Made by a program: the position numbers and the translations under genes
Notes under the pieces: generated by a model
The model's input: the letters and a program-made list of their open reading frames with translations, nothing else
Database searches by the model: none
Told to the model about the DNA's origin: nothing
Shown: piece by piece, positions 6,132 through 45,152 of the stretch
Numbering within the stretch: position 1 is the first letter of the stretch
Layout of the letters: every line of letters starts with the position of its first letter
Source of the DNA: an uncultured Eubacteriales bacterium
GTDB lineage: Bacteria > Bacillota > Clostridia > Lachnospirales > Lachnospiraceae
Length of the DNA: 63,863 nt
Assembly (NCBI GenBank): GCA_900316755.1
Contig: ONED01000003.1
Location: 1 to 63,863, forward strand
Reading direction: 5' to 3'

Positions 6132-6623
6132 CTATTTCACTCTTTCATATCTAACAAATTCGTATTCCAAATCAAAATATGTCTGTTCCTCGCTCACACC
6201 TGTAACTTCCCAATCTTCTGTCTCATCCAGATTCGGAAAATAGGTGTCCGCCTCATACGCATGGTGAATCTTTGTCACATAAGCAGTCTTACAATACGGA
6301 AGAAGTAGTTTATAAACACTATCTCCTCCGATGACATAGATTTCTTCTTCCTCATATTTTTTTATTTCTTCCAATAAAGTCTTCACAGAATGGACAGCCA
6401 CAGCATCCTTCACATGATAACTTGTGTCTTTTGTGAGAACAATATTCGTCCTGTTTTTTAGGGGCTGTCCGCCCGGAAAGCTCTCCAGCGTCTTCCTCCC
6501 CATCACAACGACCTTTCCCATCGTCGTCTCACGGAAAAACTTCATATCTGCCGGAATACTGACCAACAATTGGTTTCTAAGGCCGATTGCCCAATTTTCA
6601 TCCACTGCAACAATTAGATTCAT
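6132..6623 (-). CDS. folA: Dihydrofolate reductase
   Basis: This 163-aa enzyme reduces dihydrofolate with NADPH and so regenerates the folate oxidised by thymidylate synthase, whose gene lies just upstream. Family features are NLIVAVDENWAIG at the N terminus, the FRETTMGKVVVMGRKTLES segment and IYVIGGDSVYKLLLP. I chose ATG 6623 because TAGGAGGAAATG lies correctly before it. An in-frame ATG at 6644 would put the ribosome site inside the gene and add seven unlikely residues. Confidence 0.94.
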   Translation of the reverse strand: MNLIVAVDENWAIGLRNQLLVSIPADMKFFRETTMGKVVVMGRKTLESFPGGQPLKNRTNIVLTKDTSYHVKDAVAVHSVKTLLEEIKKYEEEEIYVIGGDSVYKLLLPYCKTAYVTKIHHAYEADTYFPNLDETEDWEVTGVSEEQTYFDLEYEFVRYERVK

Positions 6624-6647
6624 CACATTTCCTCCTACAACCATACC

Positions 6648-7496
6648 TTATACGGCAATCGGGATATCTTTTATCTGCGGCCCTGTCATATAATGATCCA
6701 GTCGCACATCCTCAGGTGTAAAATCATAAAAATTCTTAACTTCCGGATTCAGCCAGAATTCCGGTGCCGGAAATGGTTCCCTTGAAATCAGTTCTTCCAC
6801 AAGCGGAATATGTCTGTCATAAATATGGGCATCCGCAATCACATGTACGAGCTCACCCACCACCATGTCACACACTTGTGCCAGCATATGCACAAGCACT
6901 GCATACTGGCACACATTCCAGTTATTTGCGGCAAGGACATCCTGAGAACGCTGATTTAAAATCGCATTTAAAACAAGCTTATCACTGTCCGCTCTTTTCG
7001 TTACATTAAAAGTCATGCTGTACGCACAAGGATACAGATTCATCTCGTGCAAATCCTGATGCACATAGATGTTGGTCATGATGCGACGGCTGTACGGATT
7101 GTTCTTCAAATCATAAATCACCCGGTCCACCTGATCCATCATCCCTTCTTTATACTGATGCTTCACCCCCATCTGATAGCCGTATGCCTTCCCGATTGAG
7201 CCACTTTCGTCCGCCCAACTGTCCCAGATGTGTGGTTTCAGATCATGGATATTGTTTGATTTTCTCTGCCAAATCCATAACATCTCATCTACACAGCTCT
7301 TAATCCCGGTACGCCGCAGAGTCAATGCTGGGAATTCTTTTGACAAATCATACCGGTTTACCACACAGAACTTTTTCATCGTGTAAGCAGAAGTCCCATC
7401 CTCCCACTTCGGACGAACCTTCTCTCCTTCTGTGCTGACTCCATGATCAATGATATCGCGGCACATCTCAATAAATACTTTATCTGCATAACTCAT
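6648..7496 (-). CDS. thyA: Thymidylate synthase
   Basis: This 282-aa enzyme makes dTMP from dUMP using methylenetetrahydrofolate. The catalytic cysteine is C157 in LYPCAYSM, and the phosphate-binding segment is NQRSQD (about 181-186). The residue after the cysteine is alanine where most ThyA have histidine; Bacillus subtilis ThyA also lacks the histidine here, and the C-terminal WLNPEVKNFYDFTPEDVRL matches that branch closely. GAGGAGG precedes ATG 7496. The gene opens the thyA-folA-ilvB-ilvN run and has its own promoter. Confidence 0.94.
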   Translation of the reverse strand: MSYADKVFIEMCRDIIDHGVSTEGEKVRPKWEDGTSAYTMKKFCVVNRYDLSKEFPALTLRRTGIKSCVDEMLWIWQRKSNNIHDLKPHIWDSWADESGSIGKAYGYQMGVKHQYKEGMMDQVDRVIYDLKNNPYSRRIMTNIYVHQDLHEMNLYPCAYSMTFNVTKRADSDKLVLNAILNQRSQDVLAANNWNVCQYAVLVHMLAQVCDMVVGELVHVIADAHIYDRHIPLVEELISREPFPAPEFWLNPEVKNFYDFTPEDVRLDHYMTGPQIKDIPIAV

Positions 7497-7551: not shown

Positions 7552-8103
7552 CTATCCAAGCTGTTTAAATACTTTCGTTTTTTCCAGAGCCTTCACAAAC
7601 AAATAGAAAATCACAGATTGAATCGGCACCTGGATGAGCTGCTGCACACATTTTGTCGGCAGAACTGCCATAAGTGCCTTTCCGTATAGCAGATACATCC
7701 AGCAGCAATGCATACCAATATTGACGATGACGGCAACCACCGCTTTGGAAGCGAAAATTCGGATAAAAGTCATTTTCTTCTTATAAAGCATGATACCATA
7801 GATAACCGGGCCCACAATTGCATTCAGTGTCCACAAAATAGAAAAGGCGCCTGTTGGTTTGATGATAAACTTCAAAACGTCACCGATTCCCCCCATAATA
7901 CCACCTGCCACCGGGCCAAATAATGCCGCAGCCAGTTGATTTGCCACAAAAGAAATCCCTATTTTCACATTTTCCGTCACCTGAATACTGCCAAAATAGT
8001 CCAACACAATCCCAAGCGCGATAAGTAACGCTAAAAGAACCAGCGTGTTTGGTTTTTTCAGTTCCCGATAAGAATCCACGAATTGTTGTTTTAATTTGTT
8101 CAT
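7552..8103 (-). CDS. folT: Folate ECF transporter S component (FolT)
   Basis: This 183-aa, six-helix membrane protein is the substrate-binding subunit of an energy-coupling-factor importer. The family signature is the sequence of short helices with ELKKPNTLVLLALLIAL near the start and a small-residue helix (LFGPVAGGIMGGIGDVLK). The folate assignment rests on the tetrahydrofolate riboswitch directly upstream and the thyA-folA neighbours. ATG 8103 is preceded by AAAGGAGGT; the longer frame reaching 8199 runs through the leader and is not the start. No EcfA/EcfT genes lie beside it, so it presumably uses a shared ECF module encoded elsewhere. Confidence 0.88.
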   Translation of the reverse strand: MNKLKQQFVDSYRELKKPNTLVLLALLIALGIVLDYFGSIQVTENVKIGISFVANQLAAALFGPVAGGIMGGIGDVLKFIIKPTGAFSILWTLNAIVGPVIYGIMLYKKKMTFIRIFASKAVVAVIVNIGMHCCWMYLLYGKALMAVLPTKCVQQLIQVPIQSVIFYLFVKALEKTKVFKQLG

Positions 8104-8160
8104 AAAAAATACCTCCTTTGCAGTAGTCCTGAAGCTACGCATAGCAGGTATCTCTATATC
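8104..8160 (-). promoter_or_regulatory. folT riboswitch expression platform
   Basis: On the minus strand ATACCT (near 8150) can pair with AGGTAT, which contains the folT Shine-Dalgarno sequence AAAGGAGGT (8109-8117). This suggests that folate binding upstream masks the ribosome site. A T6 run after the second arm leaves transcription termination possible as well. Confidence 0.45.
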
Positions 8161-8170
8161 TGTCATGGGC

Positions 8171-8283
8171 AGCAGCGGGATGCAGAACCTGTACCGCAAG
8201 TACCCCGGCCACGCCGAAGCCTTTTCGTCCGACCGGCAACTCCCCGTCCGGTCAGCACTTAACGCACATGTTCTTACTCTGCT
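8171..8283 (-). ncRNA. Tetrahydrofolate (THF) riboswitch upstream of folT
   Basis: The minus strand carries the conserved class-I THF elements in order. The P1 arm AGCAG (8279-8283) is followed by AGTAAGAAC and the nearly invariant GCGTTAAGTG. A P3 hairpin (GACCGG with CCGGTC) comes next, then ACGAA, and GGTTCTGCATCCCGCTGCT closes P2 and P1 (CTGCT at 8171-8175). The layout matches the Eubacterium siraeum and Streptococcus mutans examples as I remember them. It controls a folate transporter, as is usual for this class. Confidence 0.88.
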
Positions 8284-35757: not shown

Positions 35758-36335
35758 TGTTGAACATTGTCCAAACAAGCATTCTCGAAATGATAGAGAT
35801 ATATGGAGAGGATAAATGTAAAAGTATTTTATCCTCTTTCCATTGCCCACTTAATCAAGATGTAGAAAACTTCTTACATAATAAAGCAATCGCTTTTGCA
35901 AAACAGTATCTGGCAATGACATTTCTGGTCTTTATTACTTATAACAAACAATTATTACCAGTCGGTTATTACACTCTCGCTAACAAATTTTTGTCTTTAT
36001 CAGACACCACAATCAGCAAAACAATTCAGAAAAAAATCTTCAAATTTGCACAATTGGAACCTTATTCCAAACAGTATTTCGTACCGATTCCACTTATAGC
36101 ACAATTGGGAAAGAACGATAAATATTCTGAACTCATTTCCGGAGAACAGTTACTTACACTTGCCTGTAATCGTGTCAAAAAAGCGCAAAAAATCATCGGT
36201 GGAAAAATGGTCTATATCGAATGTGCTTCGAACCCCAAGCTACATTCTTTTTATTCTGCAAACGGTTTTTCTGAGTTTGGTCAAAGAGGGGGAAATAACG
36301 TTCTTCCTCTAATACAGATGGTGAAATACTTTTAG
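35757..36335 (+). CDS. GNAT-family N-acetyltransferase, possible toxin
   Basis: This 192-aa acetyltransferase has the GNAT core. A strand precedes the acetyl-CoA loop (PIPLIAQLGKNDKYSELISGEQLL, about 110-133), followed by a helix. Strand VYIECASNP comes next, then FYSANGF (165-171), whose tyrosine is the usual general acid. The loop departs from the common Q/R-x-x-G-x-G/A, but the order resembles TacT/AtaT toxins that acetylate aminoacyl-tRNA. It could equally be a resistance or metabolic acetyltransferase. Coupling to a 59-aa gene, its own promoter and a strong terminator make it a compact cassette placed between minus-strand operons, which suggests horizontal transfer. Confidence 0.75.
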   Translation: MLNIVQTSILEMIEIYGEDKCKSILSSFHCPLNQDVENFLHNKAIAFAKQYLAMTFLVFITYNKQLLPVGYYTLANKFLSLSDTTISKTIQKKIFKFAQLEPYSKQYFVPIPLIAQLGKNDKYSELISGEQLLTLACNRVKKAQKIIGGKMVYIECASNPKLHSFYSANGFSEFGQRGGNNVLPLIQMVKYF

Positions 36336-36376
36336 AAAATGAACGAGCCCCAAAATCAAAGGGGCTCGTTCATTTT
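36336..36376. terminator. Strong bidirectional terminator
   Basis: A perfect 16-bp stem (AAAATGAACGAGCCCC with its complement) closes a 9-nt loop. It lies one nt after the GNAT stop and at the 3' end of the convergent cobalamin operon. T runs on both strands suit termination in both directions. Confidence 0.93.
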
Positions 36377-37996
36377 TTAGGGAAGGTCTTTCCCCAACTC
36401 GCAGGTATAGCACCACTCAATTTTATCTCCTGCAGACAGCTCATACTCGCCGCAGCTTAATGATGGCTCTTTCCCGTTCACAAAATACATCCAGCCGGAC
36501 AAATCCCCGAACGCAAACTCGTAGATATGATGGATTCCTTTCACATAGACAGACTTGTCACTGCCGCTCGTCTCAAGATGGATTTGATTCTTAGAGACTG
36601 CTTCTAAAAGGATATCGTATACCGTATCCCCTTCTTCTATCTCATACTCTGCCTCGGAGAGCACGATTCCGTCAGATGGAATATAGTCTGCATCACTTTT
36701 TACGACGATTGTATCACAGCGAATAGATAGCGTCACCTCTCCTACCGGATGCTCTTTCACGGCATCTGCATTCTCATAGTATTGCCTGGTTGTTTGGAAA
36801 TCCGTTACCCACACGATAACAATGGCAACTGCCGCGACTGCCAAAATCAAAAGAAAATTTTTTCGATTCCGTTTTTTCAAACAAAACAAAGTCACGCAAA
36901 TCCCACCGGCAAGAATCAGGATGCCAAGGGTGACCCATGGCTTATAGCTGCCATTTCCACCCATCTGTCCTGTCGGTGGATTTGTTCCGCCATTTCCGGA
37001 GCCGCTTCCCTGACTTGGAATCACAAGCCCCGCCGGATTCCTTGCATCCAGGATATAGAAACTGCTTCTGCCATTTTGCATTCGCAAATAAGATACCATA
37101 GAATAAAATACCTGAACGGTTGCCGTTCCGTTAGAGTCGCCGCCCAGCTTGTGGCAAAAACTTCCATCCGATAACTGATAGAGCCGGATTCCGTCAAAAA
37201 TGGTATTCCCGTTTTTGATAAAACGGCTGTCATTTTCACAATCTATCCCCAAAGCAGAAAGTGCCGTCAAAACCTGTGCCCCGCTTTCCGGATTGTTGAC
37301 CCCATAGCTTGCATACTCCCCGGAATCTTTCTGTTTCCCGGAAAGAAACGATAGTGCTCTGTCAATCCCACTCCTTACGGAAGAATCGGTTCCATAATAT
37401 TGTGCCAGCGCCTGTACCGCCATGGCTGTTACATCCACATCACCATAGGAGCCGGAAATTGCCCATCCCCCGTCACCAAGCTGTAGCGAAAGCAATTCTG
37501 ACTTCACGTCGGACACGGAATAAGCCTGACTGGTATAGCCATTATTCAATAGATGAAGTCCATAAATCCAGCTCATCACGCCCTGTTGCCCACTGGAATT
37601 CTGTAAAGTCTCGTAAATATAAGAATCCGTGCTTCCGGTGGCAATCAGTGCCAATGCATACTTTTGCCGGGAAGATGCCGATGATACCTGATTTTTTGCA
37701 AGATAACTCAAAAGTGCCCTCTGATAAGCAGAAAAATCAAAACTTCCATTCTGACTCAATCCGATGACGAACCATTCCGAAGAGACACCGGCATTTTTCG
37801 TAAGAGAGTCATTTATCCATTGCTGTACGGAAGAGGCACCTGCTTCCCTTAACTGATAAGCAACAATACCGTCGATGAAGCTCTGTGCTTCACCGACGGT
37901 TCGTGTTTCTCCTGCTTCGCAAGTGGAAAATAGGTTCAAAAACATTGCAAAAACTGCAATGATTGAGGCGGTTGTTTTTCGTAGTTTATTTCTCAT
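36377..37996 (-). CDS. Exported alpha-toroid plus DUF4430 protein, intrinsic-factor-like
   Basis: This 539-aa membrane protein starts with a signal peptide (about 1-28). An alpha/alpha-toroid of the prenyltransferase/terpene-cyclase repeat type spans about 40-310, with repeats such as LQLGDGGWAISGSYGDVDVTAMAVQAL and SGAQVLTALSALG. A Gly/Pro/Asn-rich linker follows. Two membrane helices (about 349-370, 377-395) flank a KKRNRKN turn. A C-terminal DUF4430 domain (about 430-535) has TVYDILLEAV, GWMYFVNGKEPS and LSAGDKIEW. Both folded domains would face outside. This domain pair is that of intrinsic factor and transcobalamin, where cobalamin lies between them. It is the last gene of the cobalamin-riboswitch operon and overlaps the previous gene by 11 nt. 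Corrinoid binding is inferred. Confidence 0.8.
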   Translation of the reverse strand: MRNKLRKTTASIIAVFAMFLNLFSTCEAGETRTVGEAQSFIDGIVAYQLREAGASSVQQWINDSLTKNAGVSSEWFVIGLSQNGSFDFSAYQRALLSYLAKNQVSSASSRQKYALALIATGSTDSYIYETLQNSSGQQGVMSWIYGLHLLNNGYTSQAYSVSDVKSELLSLQLGDGGWAISGSYGDVDVTAMAVQALAQYYGTDSSVRSGIDRALSFLSGKQKDSGEYASYGVNNPESGAQVLTALSALGIDCENDSRFIKNGNTIFDGIRLYQLSDGSFCHKLGGDSNGTATVQVFYSMVSYLRMQNGRSSFYILDARNPAGLVIPSQGSGSGNGGTNPPTGQMGGNGSYKPWVTLGILILAGGICVTLFCLKKRNRKNFLLILAVAAVAIVIVWVTDFQTTRQYYENADAVKEHPVGEVTLSIRCDTIVVKSDADYIPSDGIVLSEAEYEIEEGDTVYDILLEAVSKNQIHLETSGSDKSVYVKGIHHIYEFAFGDLSGWMYFVNGKEPSLSCGEYELSAGDKIEWCYTCELGKDLP

Positions 37997-38831
37997 GAGA
38001 TTTTCTTCTTTTTACTGCCAAAACTACAATACTTATAAAAGCAATTACTATAAATACAACTAATAGTACCGCCCAAATTGAAAATCCAGCTTCAGAATTT
38101 TCTGATGCTTTAGAGATTTCCGACTGTTCTGTCACGGAGACCTTGCATATCGGAGAAACCAGAATCTGTGTCTCAGATTTTGCGCTAATCACATGGTTTC
38201 CGACTTCTGCAATCTGAATCGTTGCTTTTCCCTCTGCATCGGTTGTCACTCCGGTTTCCTTCCCGTCAACTATTATCATGGCTTCGACAACCGGCATAAC
38301 TATCGGATTGTATTCTGCATCATATCCTGTACCGGAAAGCGTCAGCGTGATGTCTGCTTCTGCTTCAACTATTACCTCTTTTTTATCAAAATAGCAATAC
38401 ATGTCAGACCATGCAGTTTCGTCTGCATAAACGAATGCATTAATATAATCTCCATTGCTTATCTCATCTGCGAGACTCCATGCAGATGCATCATTTACAT
38501 AATACCCAAAACTCCCGCTTACATCTCCCCAGAGTTTGATTAAAGAAATACCATACTCCGTGATACCGGATTCATATCCCGCAGCCGCACCGCCTTCATA
38601 TTTTGCTTCATGGGCAGCATAAAGCGCCTCATCAATCGTGAGTTTTCCATCATTGTCCCTGTCTGTGACGGTCACTTTCTCCTGCACCACCTCAAGAGTT
38701 CCCTTATTCGCAATCGTCACATACACCTCTGCGGAGAGTGCTTCTCCCTCTGCCAAAGCAGTCAGACTCATGCCTCCTGCCAGCATGCATAAGCTCATCA
38801 TAAGAGCCAGTAATTTTTTCATTTTCTTCAT
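37986..38831 (-). CDS. Exported DUF4430-like surface protein with EF-hand-like loop
   Basis: This 281-aa protein has a signal peptide (about 1-27, ending LTALA), a transcobalamin-C/DUF4430-like domain (about 32-145; GSFGYYVNDASAWSLADEISNGDYI), a second beta domain (about 155-240, DAEGKATIQIAEVGNHVI), a spacer, and a C-terminal membrane helix (about 247-272) followed by KRRKSHEK. Inside the first domain, DRDNDGKLTIDEAL (57-70) reads like a calcium-binding EF-hand loop. I chose ATG 38831, preceded by AAGAGGA, over the ORF start at 38867. It lies between the S component and the toroid protein, so a corrinoid-handling role is likely but unproven. Confidence 0.75.
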   Translation of the reverse strand: MKKMKKLLALMMSLCMLAGGMSLTALAEGEALSAEVYVTIANKGTLEVVQEKVTVTDRDNDGKLTIDEALYAAHEAKYEGGAAAGYESGITEYGISLIKLWGDVSGSFGYYVNDASAWSLADEISNGDYINAFVYADETAWSDMYCYFDKKEVIVEAEADITLTLSGTGYDAEYNPIVMPVVEAMIIVDGKETGVTTDAEGKATIQIAEVGNHVISAKSETQILVSPICKVSVTEQSEISKASENSEAGFSIWAVLLVVFIVIAFISIVVLAVKRRKSHEK

Positions 38832-38893
38832 GTTCTTTTCCTCTTTTCTTTTAAAATAATCTATCAAAACAGGACTGCTCCTGATTTTGAACC

Positions 38894-39595
38894 TTACAAA
38901 CGGTCTGTGGCAAATATCCCGTATTTCTTTTTGAGCCGTTCCAGCTTTTCTCCCACTGGCTTTGATAGCAGCAATAAAAACACCACATTGGAAACAGCAT
39001 ATTCTGCTGTCACCGGAAGCGCCGTCGCCGCCATGGCAAGGTAGCGGGACAACCGGAAACCGCCGTCAGCCCAAAGGGTTGTCCAGATATCCATAATGGA
39101 TGAATATAAGATTCCTGCAAACACACCGAACAGGCACAATAGCACCTTGCTCTTTTGCAGAGGTTTTCGAAACACACCTGCTAAGAATCCCAAGAATCCC
39201 CAGGAAAACATCTGGAACGGGGTCCAAGGTCCCTGCCCAAAATAAAAATTGGATATCACCGCCGAAAGCGCCCCTACCACAAATCCGGCTTCCTTCCCGA
39301 GCCAGATGGCTGCAATCACCGTAATCGCCGTCACCGGTTTCAATCCGGGAAGCCATGCGAACACGAATCTTCCCAGAGAAGACAGGGCGATTAAAACCGC
39401 CAGAATCGTCAGTTCTTTTGACGAGCTTTCTCTCCGCTCAAAGCAGTAAAACAGCGGCAGACAGGAGAGAATGCATACACAGAGCGAAATCCACGCATAA
39501 TATTTTTCCCGAAAAACGAACGCCCCTCCGACTACAATCAGCGGAATCAGCAAAAGCAAAATACAGATGGTCATCCCATTCTTTTTCTTACGCAT
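38894..39595 (-). CDS. ECF transporter S component, probably for corrinoids
   Basis: This 233-aa membrane protein has seven to eight helices. After two N-terminal helices the S-component core begins at KELTILAVLIALSSLGRFVFAW, with GLKPVTAITVIAAIWLGKEAGFVVGALSAVISNFYFGQGPWTPFQM typical of this ECF family. The cobalamin riboswitch at the head of the operon makes a vitamin B12/corrinoid substrate most likely, as for CbrT. The start overlaps the stop of the ATPase gene by 8 nt. The dedicated EcfA and EcfT genes beside it make this a self-contained (group I) ECF system. Confidence 0.85.
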   Translation of the reverse strand: MRKKKNGMTICILLLLIPLIVVGGAFVFREKYYAWISLCVCILSCLPLFYCFERRESSSKELTILAVLIALSSLGRFVFAWLPGLKPVTAITVIAAIWLGKEAGFVVGALSAVISNFYFGQGPWTPFQMFSWGFLGFLAGVFRKPLQKSKVLLCLFGVFAGILYSSIMDIWTTLWADGGFRLSRYLAMAATALPVTAEYAVSNVVFLLLLSKPVGEKLERLKKKYGIFATDRL

Positions 39596-41237
39596 CCTTC
39601 TCTCCTGCCTTTCTCCCGTTCTGTCTGCAAAGCTTTGCTACCTCTTCGCACCGGATTGTATTTTTATAATATCCTCTCGAAATCCGGTTTGCCGCAGTCG
39701 TGTAAAAATGATTTTTCGTGAAGAATTTTGTCGGCGTATCCGTAGATACCAATTCCCCCGCAAAAAACATCCCGCACCGGTCTGCTTCCCGGGCAGCAAA
39801 CTCGACATCATGGGTCACCGTCAATATCGTGCCGCCTTTTTCTTTCCATTCGTTCAGAATTTGAGAAAGAGTCTGTTTCGCACCGGCATCCATGCCTTTC
39901 GTGGGCTCATCCAAAAGCAGAATCTCCGGCTTTAGGAGCATCATCTTTGCCAGCGCCGCTTTTTGCTGCTCCCCTCCGCTCAAATCATACGGATGCATCT
40001 TCTGCAGGTGTCCGATTCCAAGCCGTTCCAGAATCTCAGCGATTCTCCTTTCTGCTTCCGCCGATGTATATTCCATAAGTTCACAAGCTTCCTGCAAATC
40101 CTCCCTTACGGTCTTTCCGAGGAACAACGTCGCAGGGTTTTGGGGCAAAAGTGCCATCTTTCCATTGGTCCAAACCTTCCCCCGGTATGCCTTTAATATG
40201 CCTGCAAGGATGCCAAGCAGAGTCGTTTTCCCGGCTCCGTTCCCTCCCAATATACAGAAATGTTCTCCTTCATATACACATAGGGAAACGCCTTTCACCA
40301 CGTCCGGCAAAGATTTCCCATACCGGAACCAGACTTCTTTTAGCTCAGCCTTTTTTTCTTCCCGGTGAATATAGGGCGAAAGCTCCAGCGTATCCTCTTC
40401 ATTTCGGTAATTCCGGGTAATAAAATCTCTTCCTTCGCGCACGGTAATCGGGCACTCTCCCTCTTCTCCCAGCAAATTGAAAATACGTGTCGCGGACGGA
40501 AGCGCTTCATACATGGGATGAGACGGATGTTGTTTCAAATAAGCACCTATCCGTTTCGGACAGTCGTCAAATGTAAGCCTTCCCTGTTCCATAAAAAACA
40601 CCCGGTCGGCAATCGCAAATACCTCCTCCAGTCGGTGTTCCACCAGAAGGATGGTAATTCCCAAATCCCGGTTCAGCTTCTGGAGCGTCCCGATAAAATT
40701 CGTCGCAGCAATGGGGTCGAGCTGTGCCGTCGGCTCATCCAGAAGCAGGATTTCCGGCTGCATTGCCATAATGGAAGCAAGATTCAGGAGCTGTTTCTGC
40801 CCGCCGGACAATTCTGCCGTCTTTCTATAAAACCATTCCTCAATGCCAAAATAGCTTGCCATCTCAGCCACTCTCCGTCGGATGCTTTGTGTATCCAGTC
40901 CCAAGCTTTCCAGCCCAAAAGCCAGTTCATGCCACACCGTATCTGTCACAATCTGGCTCTCCGGATTTTGAAGGACAAACCCAATCTCCGCTGCCGCAGT
41001 GCGCTCACATAGCTCTGACAATGGCGTATCATGGTACAAAATCTCACCACTCACCTCGCCAAACGGAGAAAGCTCTCTCTTTAACAGCCGAAGCAGGGTG
41101 GACTTTCCGCAACCGGACTCCCCACATATCACAAGAAACTCTCCGTCCCTGACCGAAAATGAAATCTCCTCCAGGGCTCTTTTTTCTTCTCCCGGATAAC
41201 GAAAACTCAAATCTTTGATCTGTAATACTTCCACCAC
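39588..41237 (-). CDS. ECF transporter ATPase with two fused ABC domains
   Basis: This 549-aa cytoplasmic protein carries both nucleotide-binding domains of an ECF importer in one chain. Domain 1 has GESGCGKSTLLRLL, LSGGQKQLLNLAS and LLLDEPTAQLDP. Domain 2 begins near 290 and has GGNGAGKTTLLGIL, LSGGEQQKAALAK and LLLDEPTKGMDAG. Both carry the H-loop (VEHRLEEVF, VTHDVEF). In many ECF systems these are two genes (ecfA1, ecfA2). It overlaps ecfT by 31 nt and the S component by 8 nt, so the three subunits are tightly coupled. Confidence 0.92.
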   Translation of the reverse strand: MVEVLQIKDLSFRYPGEEKRALEEISFSVRDGEFLVICGESGCGKSTLLRLLKRELSPFGEVSGEILYHDTPLSELCERTAAAEIGFVLQNPESQIVTDTVWHELAFGLESLGLDTQSIRRRVAEMASYFGIEEWFYRKTAELSGGQKQLLNLASIMAMQPEILLLDEPTAQLDPIAATNFIGTLQKLNRDLGITILLVEHRLEEVFAIADRVFFMEQGRLTFDDCPKRIGAYLKQHPSHPMYEALPSATRIFNLLGEEGECPITVREGRDFITRNYRNEEDTLELSPYIHREEKKAELKEVWFRYGKSLPDVVKGVSLCVYEGEHFCILGGNGAGKTTLLGILAGILKAYRGKVWTNGKMALLPQNPATLFLGKTVREDLQEACELMEYTSAEAERRIAEILERLGIGHLQKMHPYDLSGGEQQKAALAKMMLLKPEILLLDEPTKGMDAGAKQTLSQILNEWKEKGGTILTVTHDVEFAAREADRCGMFFAGELVSTDTPTKFFTKNHFYTTAANRISRGYYKNTIRCEEVAKLCRQNGRKAGEKDA

Positions 41238-42088
41238 AACTCCTCCTTTCCATCAAGGATAAACGGCAGCAGGCAGAGAATCAAAAATGCTGCCAGCGCC
41301 AAACTAAGGCCAAGCGTAACCGGTGTGGCGGAAATTGCAGGATAAAAAGCAAATTCCAGACTTCCGGCAGCCATTGCCCCCAAAATCACCATATCCAATA
41401 CTACAATCAATAACAGAAACCCGGCATCCCGTTTTTGAAACCGAAACAGGGAATAGTGACTTCTGCCTTTCAGCCCATATCCACGCCCTTTCATAGATGC
41501 GCCTGTTTCAATGGCATGTTCAAACGCCCATGTCAGCAGTGCGGAATATACCCTGACCGTCCCCCGGAATCTGTCTACAAAGCTTTCCGATGCATAGAGA
41601 CCCATGGCTTTCTGCGACTGCCGTATTTTCGAAGCCTGTCCTTTCAATAAGGGAACAAACCGCAGTGCCGTCGAGAGGAGCAGCGCAATCTTCGGCGATA
41701 CTTTTCCAAACAGAAACAATAGTTTGTCTTCGGTCAGCACCTGATTCAGACAGTGAAACCAAAGCACCACTGCTGCCAAAGTCACTGCCATATGTACTCC
41801 ATACAGTAATGCCTCCAGTGTCACCGGATTGCCGTTCAGGAAAAATAAGGGAGTCACACCATTGTGGGAAAACAGCGGATTCGTAACCGCAATCACGCCA
41901 AATAGCAGAAGATATCTTCCCCATCCCCAAAAGCTCTTGTTCCCTTTTTCATTTTTTACATAAAGTAACATTCCTCCGAATAACGCAGCCACCTGTATCA
42001 CCGGATTTCCGGAAAACATCGTAAATCCCAAAACAGATACAAAATACACTGCCAAAACCACCGGATGGAACGAAAAAGACCGCTCCAT
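41207..42088 (-). CDS. ecfT: ECF transporter transmembrane subunit EcfT
   Basis: This 293-aa membrane scaffold links the ATPase to the S component. It has about six helices plus the cytoplasmic coupling region. ALRFVPLLKGQASKIRQSQKAMG and HAIETGASMKGRGYGLKGR supply the coupling helices, with the conserved arginine of the x-R-G motifs. I prefer ATG 42088 (MERSFSFHP) because GGAGGG lies about 6 nt before it; the open frame to 42127 would overlap the riboswitch terminator. It is the first gene after the cobalamin riboswitch. Confidence 0.9.
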   Translation of the reverse strand: MERSFSFHPVVLAVYFVSVLGFTMFSGNPVIQVAALFGGMLLYVKNEKGNKSFWGWGRYLLLFGVIAVTNPLFSHNGVTPLFFLNGNPVTLEALLYGVHMAVTLAAVVLWFHCLNQVLTEDKLLFLFGKVSPKIALLLSTALRFVPLLKGQASKIRQSQKAMGLYASESFVDRFRGTVRVYSALLTWAFEHAIETGASMKGRGYGLKGRSHYSLFRFQKRDAGFLLLIVVLDMVILGAMAAGSLEFAFYPAISATPVTLGLSLALAAFLILCLLPFILDGKEELWWKYYRSKI

Positions 42089-42127
42089 TTGTTCCCTCCC
42101 TCTCAAATTCAAAACTTGCCAAGACAT

Positions 42128-42163
42128 AAAAAATACTCTTCCAACAATTCCGTTAAAAGAGTA
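42128..42163 (-). terminator. Expression-platform terminator of the cobalamin riboswitch
   Basis: On the minus strand a TACTCTT / AAGAGTA stem closes a loop of about 16 nt and runs into T6, about 40 nt before ecfT. Its place between aptamer and first gene suggests control by transcription termination when cobalamin is bound. Confidence 0.65.
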
Positions 42164-42271
42164 CTCTCGATTTTATATATTTCAAAAACACCTTGGACAT
42201 CTTTCATCCAAAGCCTTCTTCCCACAATATCATCGATTGCACCCTTCACACCCAAGCTGTGTAAATCGAAA

Positions 42272-42460
42272 GAATACGGCAGGTCTCCTGACTTATGATA
42301 TAACAGTGTCTGCTGTCCGAAAAAGCTCACCTTCTCAGGAATGTTTCTCCCAATGGCTTATCTGCTCTTTCTTCATCAAATACAGTAATGGCAGTTGTTC
42401 CGGATTCTGACCGGATTCCCTTTTCATCTACTTAAGCTACCGCTTTTCAAACCGTATTCC
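42272..42460 (-). ncRNA. Cobalamin riboswitch
   Basis: The minus strand carries the class features in order. P1 pairs GAATACGG (42452-42459) with CCGTATTC (42272-42279). AAAAGGGAATCCGGT, ATCCGGAACAACTGCC and GCCATTGGGAGAAACATTCCTGAGAAGG follow. The 3' B12 box reads AAGTCAGGAGACCTGCC. The aptamer precedes an operon encoding an ECF importer and two exported proteins, so these are expected to be made when cobalamin is short. Confidence 0.95.
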
Positions 42461-42483
42461 CTGTCATCTATTCAACTGCTAAC

Positions 42484-42512
42484 ATTGTACTACCGTTTTT
42501 GCACGAATGCAA
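42484..42512 (-). promoter_or_regulatory. Promoter of the cobalamin operon
   Basis: On the minus strand TTGCAT (42507-42512) and TACAAT (42484-42489) are 17 nt apart. The -10 box lies about 25 nt before the riboswitch P1 stem, as expected for a leader RNA. Confidence 0.65.
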
Positions 42513-42860: not shown

Positions 42861-43746
42861 TCAACCTCCTATGATATTCTCTCTCCCACAAACGCTCAGC
42901 CCAAGTACAATCAAATCCAGAAGATGGAGAGCAAGCTGCCCAATTCGCTTTCCTTCTGTATAAATATAGTGACTGTATTCTCTTCTTTTTTCCGGTTCCA
43001 AATCGAATGTCCTGAGCAAATCGGCATACCCGATAATAGAAGTCAGCGGTGTTTTAATTTCATGCGTAAAACTCCCCATAAAGTCTTCTTTCTTCCTTGC
43101 ATTCTCCTCCAGCTCTCTGATATGCCGTTCTGTATGCTCTGCCAAATGATTCAATGCTCTTCCAAGCTCTGCCACTTCATAGGATTTCATGTTGCGATAG
43201 GCACAATCCATCCTTACAGAATAATCTCCGCCGGAAATCTGTCTTGCAGCTTTCGTCACCCGCGTTAATGGTCTCGTAATATACCAGGAAAACACATATA
43301 AAACTGCTGCGACTACTACGAAAGTACAGATAATCAATTTCCGGTACAACTCATAATTCTGATTTCGCCACTCCAAAATCCCGGAGATATCGTGGTAATT
43401 GAGAATATATTGTTCTTCTTATTTACTGACAACCTGTATTTCGGTTGCCTGATTTTCAGAAACAATCGAATACCGGTATTCCCCGCTTTGCAATGTTTCG
43501 GCCTCTTGTTCCTTAACCAACAGACGGACTTCCTCATCGGTTCCCACTACAATTTCCGTCTCTTCCCCTTTTTCCATAGACTCTATAAAACGACTGAGGG
43601 AGTCCTCTGCATTCTTGATTCCCACCGTTTCATCCAACGTTGCCACATAGGAATACAGCATTTCATTATTTACAATAGCAGCCTATCATAGTAAGCGCCA
43701 TCATGATACAGTATGTAAAAATAAAAATTTTAAACGAAATTTTCAT
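42861..43746 (-). pseudogene. Broken sensor histidine kinase
   Basis: The gene is disrupted three times. ATG 43746 starts a membrane segment (MKISFKIFIFTYCIMMALT) and hits TAA within about 27 codons; shifting frame gives IVNNEMLYSYVATLDE and the sensor region. That frame meets an in-frame TAA at about 43420 (VVSK-stop-EEQYILNYHD) and then continues into a second helix, HAMP and HisKA with the phospho-histidine in FTHEIKTPLTSIIGYADLLR. Coding stops at 42861 after LIVLG with no ATP-binding domain. It therefore cannot make a working kinase. Its response regulator gene upstream is damaged too. Confidence 0.85.
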
Positions 43747-43758
43747 AGCTGCCCTTTC

Positions 43759-44145
43759 CTAATCCGTCTGCTCCATAAATCGATACCCCACTTTAAATAC
43801 GGTCTGAATCTGCTTTTCCATTCCAAGTTTTTTGCGCAGCCTCTGGATATGCAAATCCACTGTCCTCGTGTCCTCGCAGAACGGGTCTTTCCAAATCTTC
43901 TCGTAAATGGTCTCCCGATACAACGCAATGTTTTTATTTCTCACCAGCAACAAAAGCAGCTCAAATCCATCTATTTTCGGCAGCATCACATCCAGCAGAA
44001 TCAAATCATAGACTTCCGTTTCTACCTCTGTTGCCGCATTCTCTCCGTCAAACAGACACTTACAGAAATACCCTTGATTTTCCAGTGTTTCTTTTATTAA
44101 GTTTGCAATGAGAAACTCATCCTCCACAATCAATATCCGAATCAT
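43759..44145 (-). pseudogene. Response regulator with internal in-frame deletion
   Basis: The 128-codon frame starts MIRILIVEDEFLIANLI (ATG 44145, after GGAGGGAGAAGG) and keeps the phospho-acceptor aspartate in ILLDVMLPKIDG. It then jumps at FELL into LLLLVRNKNIALYRETIYEKIW, the middle of an OmpR-type winged helix, ending VDLHIQRLRKKLG and VGYRFME. The receiver's conserved Thr and Lys and the start of the DNA-binding domain, about 90 residues, are gone. Frame is preserved, so a short protein may still be made, but normal switching is not possible. Its kinase partner is also broken. Confidence 0.8.
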
Positions 44146-44333
44146 ACCTTCTCCCTCCGTCACCATAATACTATCCACTTGTATCATTTTTGTAAAGCTC
44201 AGATGCAAACGAAACTGTTGCAGCTTTTCGTAAAATTTTACACGGATGATACAACTTCTTAAAAAAAAAGATACACCCCTTCCTTAAGATAAGCACCGTA
44301 AAATACAAACAACTTTTAGGGAGGGCCTGCCTT

Positions 44334-45152
44334 ATGAGAAAACGAAAGAATACAAAGCAACGCAGAAGAATAATATTAATACTGAAATTCCTATGTATGA
44401 TGGTAATCCTTATGATATTGAAAATCACCTTTTTTTCTTCCTCTGCAATCTCAGAAAATCCGTCTTCCAAAGATACCGCATCTCTTAATGAAAAGCCTGA
44501 AACAGATTCTGAAAATGAGAAAGGCAGCACAACGCTCCCCATAAAGGGACTTTCACAGGAAGGGATTCCCACCGGATGTGAATCGGTCAGCACCGTTGCT
44601 GCCCTGCAATACTTCGGTGTCAATATCACAACAGATGAATTTATCGAAAGCTTCCTGCCCTGCAAAAGATTTTATTGGAAAAATGATATGCTATACGGAC
44701 CGGACCCTCAAGAATACTTTGCCGGCGACCCCTATCAATCCCAAAGCTTAGGCTGCTACCCAGCCGTCATTTTGAAGGCACTCACCAAAATGAAACGCGC
44801 AGAATATCCGGGAATGGAAGGGCTGTCCTTTCACAATGTTTCCGGCACAGATTTAGAAACGCTCACTGCACAATATATTGACAAACGGATTCCGGTCATC
44901 CTCTGGGTAACGATTGACATGAAAGAATCCTACCCGGGAATGCAGTACCATTTGGAGGACGACTCCCTCTACACATGGACAGCGCAGGAGCACTGCACCG
45001 TCCTCTGCGGATACGATGAGACCTCCTATTATCTCATGGATCCGCTAAAAGGCGGAGAAATTGTCTCCCGTCCCAAAGAATTGGTTCAGAAACGATATCA
45101 GGAAATCGGAAAATATGCCCTCGTAATTATTCCTTCAGACTCCCTCTCATAA
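44334..45152 (+). CDS. Membrane-anchored C39-like cysteine peptidase
   Basis: This 272-aa protein has a basic N terminus and one membrane anchor (about 13-36), then an Asp/Glu/Ser-rich linker and a Peptidase_C39_2 domain outside the cell. The catalytic residues are C82 (GIPTGCESVS), H220 (AQEHCTVLCGYD) and D236 (YYLMDPLKGG). In the family the substrates are mostly unknown; some members act on peptides or are inactive binding proteins. No bacteriocin or transporter genes are adjacent. Its 3' end overlaps the convergent dinB by 26 nt. Confidence 0.82.
   Translation: MRKRKNTKQRRRIILILKFLCMMVILMILKITFFSSSAISENPSSKDTASLNEKPETDSENEKGSTTLPIKGLSQEGIPTGCESVSTVAALQYFGVNITTDEFIESFLPCKRFYWKNDMLYGPDPQEYFAGDPYQSQSLGCYPAVILKALTKMKRAEYPGMEGLSFHNVSGTDLETLTAQYIDKRIPVILWVTIDMKESYPGMQYHLEDDSLYTWTAQEHCTVLCGYDETSYYLMDPLKGGEIVSRPKELVQKRYQEIGKYALVIIPSDSLS

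Follow-up and report, generated by a model that had tools for sequence, protein, structure and literature searches.

The 63,863-nucleotide stretch analysed here (the window: positions 1 to 63,863 of contig ONED01000003.1, assembly GCA_900316755.1) derives from an uncultured Eubacteriales bacterium of the Lachnospiraceae, and its minus strand carries, from 42512 to 36336, what is probably a corrinoid-scavenging operon: a cobalamin riboswitch would control an importer of the energy-coupling factor (ECF) class, of the type of the vitamin B12 transporter CbrT, together with two anchored surface proteins, here called p1 and p2, that are predicted to capture corrinoids. Of these, p1 joins an alpha toroid to a DUF4430 domain (PF14478), in the order in which the animal B12 carriers intrinsic factor (IF), haptocorrin (HC) and transcobalamin (TC) join their alpha and beta domains. 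The sequence itself shows the riboswitch, the type of importer, the domains of the proteins and the conserved neighbourhood of the genes; from these we infer corrinoid binding, transfer to the importer and the direction of regulation.

The host genome (2.14 Mb in 90 contigs, 96.7 % complete) encodes a MetH-like protein and gave no match to CbiC, the only biosynthesis gene that was searched for; together, these two observations indicate that the bacterium probably needs corrinoid from outside. The operon contains both the sole match to the cobalamin riboswitch family RF00174 and the only DUF4430 match in this genome, and it may well be the main corrinoid source of the host, the search having covered this uptake system only.

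Layout of the operon and its importer

From a promoter-like element at its 5' end to a terminator at its 3' end, the region reads as a single B12-regulated transcription unit (Table 1), whose terminator adjoins a convergent gene ending at 36335. Downstream of the leader follow ecfT, a fused double ATPase, the S component, p2 and p1, with intergenic gaps of -31, -8, 62 and -11 bp in that order. A preliminary description, made from the sequence without database searches, had proposed just this arrangement, namely one minus-strand unit with promoter, riboswitch, terminator platform, the three importer genes and two exported proteins, with overlaps or short gaps throughout and a strong shared terminator, and our analysis confirms it in these respects. 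The promoter-like element was absent from the criteria-based promoter scan because its first hexamer fits the consensus at only three of six positions.

Between the aptamer and the first gene lies a predicted expression platform able to stop transcription. Sensor and hairpin are themselves seen, and the off-switch direction that we assume follows the logic of the cobalamin riboswitch family: at low adenosylcobalamin, the riboswitch would let transcription pass the terminator hairpin. Since the annotated ATG of ecfT at 42127 stands directly behind the U tract of this terminator, the start is likelier at 42088, where an ATG follows a good Shine-Dalgarno sequence (GGGAGGGAA).

Table 1. Features of the operon on the minus strand of the window, in the direction of transcription
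Feature	Positions	Strand	Evidence
Promoter-like element, TTGCAT-17 nt-TACAAT	42484..42512	-	By eye; hexamers 3/6 and 5/6 of consensus; weak
Cobalamin riboswitch aptamer, RF00174	42261..42471	-	86.4 bits, gathering score 31.5; full length (1-189/189)
Expression-platform hairpin, then GU5	42190..42214	-	z -3.3; 1/200 shuffles as stable
Uninterrupted 18-pair hairpin and U tract, likely riboswitch terminator	42128..42168	-	z -4.8; 0/200 shuffles as stable
ecfT (CbrV-like) transmembrane component	41207..42127	-	PF02361 49.0 bits, cut-off 25
Fused double ECF ATPase (CbrU-like)	39588..41237	-	TIGR04520 342.7 bits, cut-off 315; two stretches in one chain
ECF S component, CbrT-like	38894..39595	-	PF07155 43.6 bits and PF12822 37.2 bits, both over cut-off
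p2: signal peptide, DxDxDG loop, divergent DUF4430-like core, CarboxypepD_reg-like domain, C-terminal hydrophobic segment	37986..38831	-
p2 EF-hand/dockerin-like DxDxDG loop	~38663-38622	-	Pfam EF-hand_1 under cut-off
p1: signal peptide, alpha toroid, membrane hairpin, DUF4430 domain	36377..37996	-
p1 alpha toroid, ~residues 30-320	37037..37909	-	PF13243 SQHop_cyclase_C 28.6 bits, cut-off 26.1, residues 137-261
p1 membrane hairpin, residues 355-398, basic loop KKRNRK	36803..36934	-	Two hydropathy peaks
p1 DUF4430 / transcobalamin-type beta domain	36404..36631	-	PF14478 58.9 bits
Intrinsic terminator, 16-pair stem	36336..36376	-	z -8.3

By homology, this is a dedicated importer of the CbrT/CbrUVT kind within the ECF class. 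When ten S proteins were combined in a profile, its best solved match in the PDB was CbrT (6FNP) with an E-value of 6.9e-14, the next match having 0.0075, which bears out the B12-type importer of the preliminary description; 6FNP is the S component of ECF-CbrT, a transporter of B12 (PMC5997447). A cobalt or nickel importer was considered and rejected, as the S component matches CbrT and Pfam S-component families, and CbiQ, the name carried by the EcfT protein, is that of the T family in Pfam. In the S proteins of the window group, about 60 N-terminal residues precede the part that matches CbrT (from profile position 62), and in the window this extension shows two hydrophobic peaks. Furthermore, double ATPase and S component share one 869-residue frame in the relative locus L034 (12116-14725), and 52 of the 108 S-component rows in the class survey described below lie within open frames of 700-1,021 residues, which suggests that ATPase-S fusion is common.

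The two exported proteins

The signal peptide in front and the hairpin between the domains would place both domains of p1 outside the membrane. Each of the 12 aligned p1 proteins, of which one is truncated by a contig edge, has the toroid, then a pair of hydrophobic segments around a short basic loop, and the DUF4430 domain. By eye, the signal region of p1 ends in a cysteine (LFSTC), a non-canonical context for a lipoprotein signal, and a lipobox-like motif was found in 20 of 54 small DUF4430 open reading frames (ORFs).

Judged by profile comparison, the DUF4430 domain of p1 is homologous to the beta domain of IF, HC and TC: 29 bacterial DUF4430 domains aligned with the animal beta domains over 76 columns (hhalign E 1.1e-6, probability 91 %), and a piece of human IF matches PF14478 with E 1.9e-4 and 22.3 bits, slightly under the cut-off of 23.8. 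For the toroid, pairwise hhalign gave an alignment of 200 columns to the animal alpha domain (score 32.8, E 6.2e-4, probability 28 %), against 19.6 for the best of 30 column-shuffled decoys and 20.0 for the reversed profile; the hhalign E-values are pairwise and uncorrected for database or for the choices of profile and cut. In addition, residues D153, D204 and Q252 of IF, which we take to be cobalamin contacts, align with D188, N235 and Q295 of p1, none of which varies among the 12 p1 proteins. The nearest solved relatives of the toroid are squalene-hopene cyclases, and a PDB search with the single p1 sequence likewise returned these and no B12 carrier. The design of animal intrinsic factor, which had been proposed for the exported proteins, thus stands for p1 in the order of toroid and DUF4430 and in the homology of the beta domain, and is weaker for the toroid. 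A weak match of p1-type toroids to the NCBIfam family NF053823 ('SCO2321 family membrane protein') was also seen, with E 2.6e-4 for p1 of the window and 1.7e-5 for the frame at 2975-4831 of L079; lying far under the family cut-off of 300 bits, it hints at a possible actinobacterial counterpart of the toroid.

The second protein, p2, is more divergent. Its CarboxypepD_reg-like domain scores under the Pfam cut-off, one region carries a GYYVN...GD motif, and the C-terminal hydrophobic segment is found in eight of nine aligned p2 proteins; the three aspartates of the DxDxDG loop are invariant in all nine, which suggests calcium binding. A DUF4430 domain in p2 was not recovered by Pfam, either with p2 of the window at E up to 1 or among the families matched by the nine aligned proteins at E up to 0.1, and p2 as a plain DUF4430 protein is rejected at that level. 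Nor did the claim that p2 is intrinsic-factor-like hold for the protein as a whole, its likeness being confined to a divergent core of 30 columns in which 16 p2 proteins match 111 DUF4430 domains (E 1.6e-5, score 31.4, the best of 100 shuffles reaching 18.5); two of these 16 frames carry a separate DUF4430 domain elsewhere. With a smaller p2 alignment, neither the comparison with DUF4430 (E 0.094) nor that with the animal beta domains (E 0.52) was significant, the p2 profile found no credible match in the PDB, and its match to the p1 profile was limited to the signal peptides. We regard p2 as probably a divergent relative of the beta domain and not a carrier. Matches of the p2 type occur in 22 of the 150 genomes of the family survey below (four above 190 bits), as compared with 34 for the S component and 72 for DUF4430; being this uncommon, p2 is an extra of some lineages.

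In the mechanism that we propose, p1 would be a membrane-tethered counterpart of the animal B12 carriers, its toroid and beta domain closing on the corrinoid like the alpha and beta domains of transcobalamin, and p2, with its divergent beta core and possible calcium loop, might conceivably serve as a second binder or as a docking piece. Outside the membrane, p1 and perhaps p2 would catch corrinoid and raise its local concentration; the corrinoid would then be handed to the S component and driven inward by the ECF module. Release of B12 from the animal carriers requires proteolysis (PMC11107200), so that a bacterial clamp feeding an importer would need some other way to let go of it.

Conservation in relatives and alternative readings

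A search of GTDB contigs with p1 led to 11 relative loci (Clostridia, Ruminococcus or Oscillospiraceae; several from ruminants). All 11 hold an S component beside p1, ten hold ecfT (shortened in one), nine the double ATPase and eight p2; the shortened ecfT belongs to L033, which is without ATPase, and L039 is without both ecfT and ATPase. Window and L032 share the order T-AA-S-p2-p1, and most other loci have p2/p1 ahead of T-AA-S. A riboswitch of the cobalamin class lies upstream at curated score in seven of the 11, as RF00174 in L032, L034, L035 and L036, as RF01689 in L038 and L040 and as RF01482 in L041, and the match in L033 (30.3 bits) falls just under that score; the upstream region of L042 is cut by the contig edge. 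No non-cobalamin riboswitch family reached its curated score in the 11 loci, a glycine riboswitch in L039 (E 1.3) being below it. Furthermore, L080, L081 and L083 encode toroid and DUF4430 in two genes that neighbour each other, and in L079 the two are fused, as in the window.

Two side observations concern the surface part. In L115 (G123), a locus from a genome of the window's genus, a riboswitch is accompanied by an S component, a DUF4430 frame of 176 residues, ATPase and T, but the 8 kb retrieved gave no toroid match and the genome none for p2, so that the surface part differs within one genus. Separately, DUF4430 frames of ~2,000-2,600 residues, some with toroids, lie 1-6 kb downstream of cobalamin riboswitches in L107, L108 and L121 and are possible larger surface corrinoid binders.

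The family survey covered 150 genomes of the window's family, with E-values up to 0.001 for DUF4430 and up to 0.01 for RF00174. DUF4430 was found in 72 of them, with 107 matches (two under the Pfam cut-off), and these 72 genomes hold 96 RF00174 matches, all but four of which reach the curated score. Of the 107 DUF4430 matches, 58 (in 46 of the 72 genomes) have an RF00174 match no more than 12 kb upstream on their own strand, or 55 (44 genomes) if only riboswitches over the curated score count, because three of the near matches rest on riboswitches below it; chance alone would give about 0.3 %, a rough figure for which 3 Mb per genome is assumed. The window-type S component occurs in 34 of the 150 genomes, every one of which also has DUF4430 (hypergeometric p 7e-14, base 72/150). 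DUF4430 stands within 8 kb on the same strand at 32 of the 35 S loci, the other three having no DUF4430 match on the same contig, and at 19 of the 35 an RF00174 match lies within 16 kb upstream.

When the 107 DUF4430 matches were classed by their neighbours on the same strand within 7 kb, an ECF S component was nearby for 86. A full T, ATPase and S module adjoins 42 of them, 32 with a toroid, fused or separate; an S component only adjoins 44, in 42 cases no more than 0.5 kb away, and T or ATPase only adjoins three. The class with S only is partly circular, as the profile for small S proteins was seeded with six ORFs from the same loci; as an independent check, a profile of seven small S proteins (161-182 residues, shorter than those of the window type) found no PDB match other than CbrT (E 1.2e-17) at E up to 1. 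In the wider survey of the class, the S component was found in 104 and DUF4430 in 133 of 291 genomes, and DUF4430 was present in 100 of the 104 genomes with the S component (p 4e-43), outside the window's family in 97 of 101. For at least 76 of the 108 S loci, a DUF4430 match on the same strand lies no further than 8 kb away, a count that leaves aside the window's own S row and one overlapping row with 11 stops.

Several results weigh against the reading of the locus as a corrinoid-scavenging operon. In the family, 49 of the 107 DUF4430 matches have no RF00174 match nearby and 16 of the 35 S loci have none within 16 kb upstream, the genome-wide search having used RF00174 only, where RF01689 and RF01482 also occur at such loci; L037 and L039 are without a cobalamin riboswitch even at E up to 2. 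Eighteen of the 107 DUF4430 matches have no ECF gene within 7 kb, and p2 is so rare in the family that most such systems do not need it. Moreover, the hhalign probability of the match between toroid and alpha domain is only 28 %, the 12-protein p1 profile returned cyclases and no animal B12 carrier from the PDB at E up to 1, and the profile of 29 DUF4430 domains returned no animal carrier there at E up to 5. The genome survey that the preliminary description had proposed mostly speaks in its favour by these counts (55 of 107, 86 of 107 and 100 of 104), with the 49 matches lacking RF00174 and the 18 lacking an ECF gene on the other side.

Cobalamin riboswitches also control salvage genes for corrinoid precursors and analogues, and the substrate might accordingly be cobinamide, another cobamide, alpha-ribazole or a lower-ligand base instead of B12 itself, the more so as a PDB search cannot tell apart S components that have no solved structures. 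We consider this unlikely, since the closest solved S component is that of the B12 transporter CbrT, the host, lacking a CbiC match, does not appear to make the corrin ring, and a clamp of toroid and beta domain would fit a whole corrinoid and not a lone base. Another reading keeps the corrinoid importer and denies p1 and p2 any binding, casting them as scaffolds: they would protect the S component, or dock it to the ECF module or the cell wall. The 44 small DUF4430 proteins beside solitary S components would suit such a role, as the contact partner of DUF4430 may there be the S protein, and so would the lack of a significant match between p2 and the animal beta domain (E 0.52); p1, however, appears to retain both parts of the clamp, and its residues aligned with D153, D204 and Q252 of IF are conserved. 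Further, the isolated beta domain of human TC has been crystallised with bound cyanocobalamin (CNCbl), and separated TC alpha and beta domains assemble only with cobalamin (Cbl) (PMC5599065), a behaviour that the split toroid and DUF4430 genes of L080, L081 and L083 would fit. Pure scaffolds are thus distinctly unlikely in our view.

That p1 could be an exported enzyme resembling terpene cyclases, with an incidental place in the operon, is brought up by the PF13243 match over its cut-off and by the squalene-hopene cyclases among the profile matches in the PDB. Yet p1 has a single short toroid only, together with a signal peptide and a DUF4430 partner, and it lies beside an ECF S component in all of the 11 fetched loci, while the separate neighbouring genes for toroid and DUF4430 speak for joint work rather than catalysis; an enzyme of this sort is highly improbable. 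Corrinoid capture by p1 ahead of a CbrT-type importer remains the reading that we prefer.

Some features elsewhere in the window deserve mention. Upstream of the operon, a Peptidase_C39_2 protein (63.5 bits) is encoded on the opposite strand (44334-45152, plus), and a two-component system at 42861-44208 (minus) looks decayed: a HAMP/HisKA piece (42861-43376) stands apart from its neighbours, and the receiver match of the response regulator ends at 68 of 111 positions, ahead of the DNA-binding domain. At 8283-6132 (minus), a THF riboswitch (86.1 bits) precedes a FolT-like S component (7552-8199), behind which come frames whose translations suggest thymidylate synthase (6648-7496) and dihydrofolate reductase (6132-6644).

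Comparison with known systems

The importer is most readily compared with ECF-CbrT of Lactobacillus delbrueckii: its S component is nearest to CbrT among solved structures and it likewise has EcfT and ECF ATPases, whereas it differs in its dedicated T, its fused double ATPase, the N-terminal extension of the S component and the two anchored surface proteins. In the excerpted text of the ECF-CbrT paper (PMC5997447), no surface-protein partner is described and the terms 'DUF' and 'riboswitch' are absent. The same paper describes an E. coli strain for B12 uptake in which btuF, btuC and metE are missing. CbrUVT is named among the B12 uptake systems in gut reconstructions (PMC6593275). Comparable, too, is LGG_02295 of L. 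rhamnosus (LRHMDP2_2713, K8Q211), a DUF4430 protein labelled 'Additional lipoprotein component of putative cobalamin ECF transporter', whose gene lies near rtpR, which encodes an adenosylcobalamin-dependent reductase (PMC9963975). It resembles the class of small DUF4430 proteins with a solitary S component, and p1 likewise has its DUF4430 domain beside an ECF S component; with 14.3 kDa, LGG_02295 is too small to hold a toroid as well, and its role is a database label, not an experiment.

The preliminary description knew of no experimental description of its idea, though it allowed that one might exist. No experiment on a bacterial toroid-DUF4430 protein was found, but the idea is partly known, as the link between DUF4430, cobalamin and ECF transport exists in the annotation of LGG_02295. 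In the literature within reach of the search, most subscription papers and preprints lying beyond it, neither the toroid-DUF4430 class nor its connection with riboswitches nor corrinoid binding by it is described. In that literature, extracellular corrinoid capture by Gram-positives is little described, and work on surface capture centres on BtuG and BtuH of Bacteroides. These two belong to an outer-membrane system, and their folds are unrelated to those of p1 and p2. The logic is alike, in that a high-affinity surface protein feeds an importer (BtuG, PMC6977713; BtuH, PMC8941943); the fold of BtuG is a beta-propeller (PMC6977713). If p1 binds corrinoids, an intrinsic-factor-like bacterial surface catcher of B12 would stand next to an importer in many families of the class, which would bear on microbial competition for B12 and on the origin of the animal carriers, and would give a function to PF14478, a Pfam domain still called 'unknown'.

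IF, HC and TC resemble p1 in design, with an alpha toroid followed by a beta (DUF4430) domain and with homologous beta domains. Unlike these soluble secreted carriers, p1 is bacterial and apparently anchored by its hairpin, and its toroid is nearer to the cyclases in sequence; we do not file it as an intrinsic factor because two predicted membrane helices stand between its domains in all 12 p1 proteins. It is a serious possibility, if still a little short of a probable one, that the clamp known from animal B12 carriers also forms the surface part of a bacterial B12 importer widespread in the class of the window (apparently Clostridia, to judge by the relatives of p1), either tethered by a hairpin or split into two proteins, that a CbrT-type ECF system empties this clamp with no need of proteolysis, and that the animal carriers share ancestry with it or derive from it.

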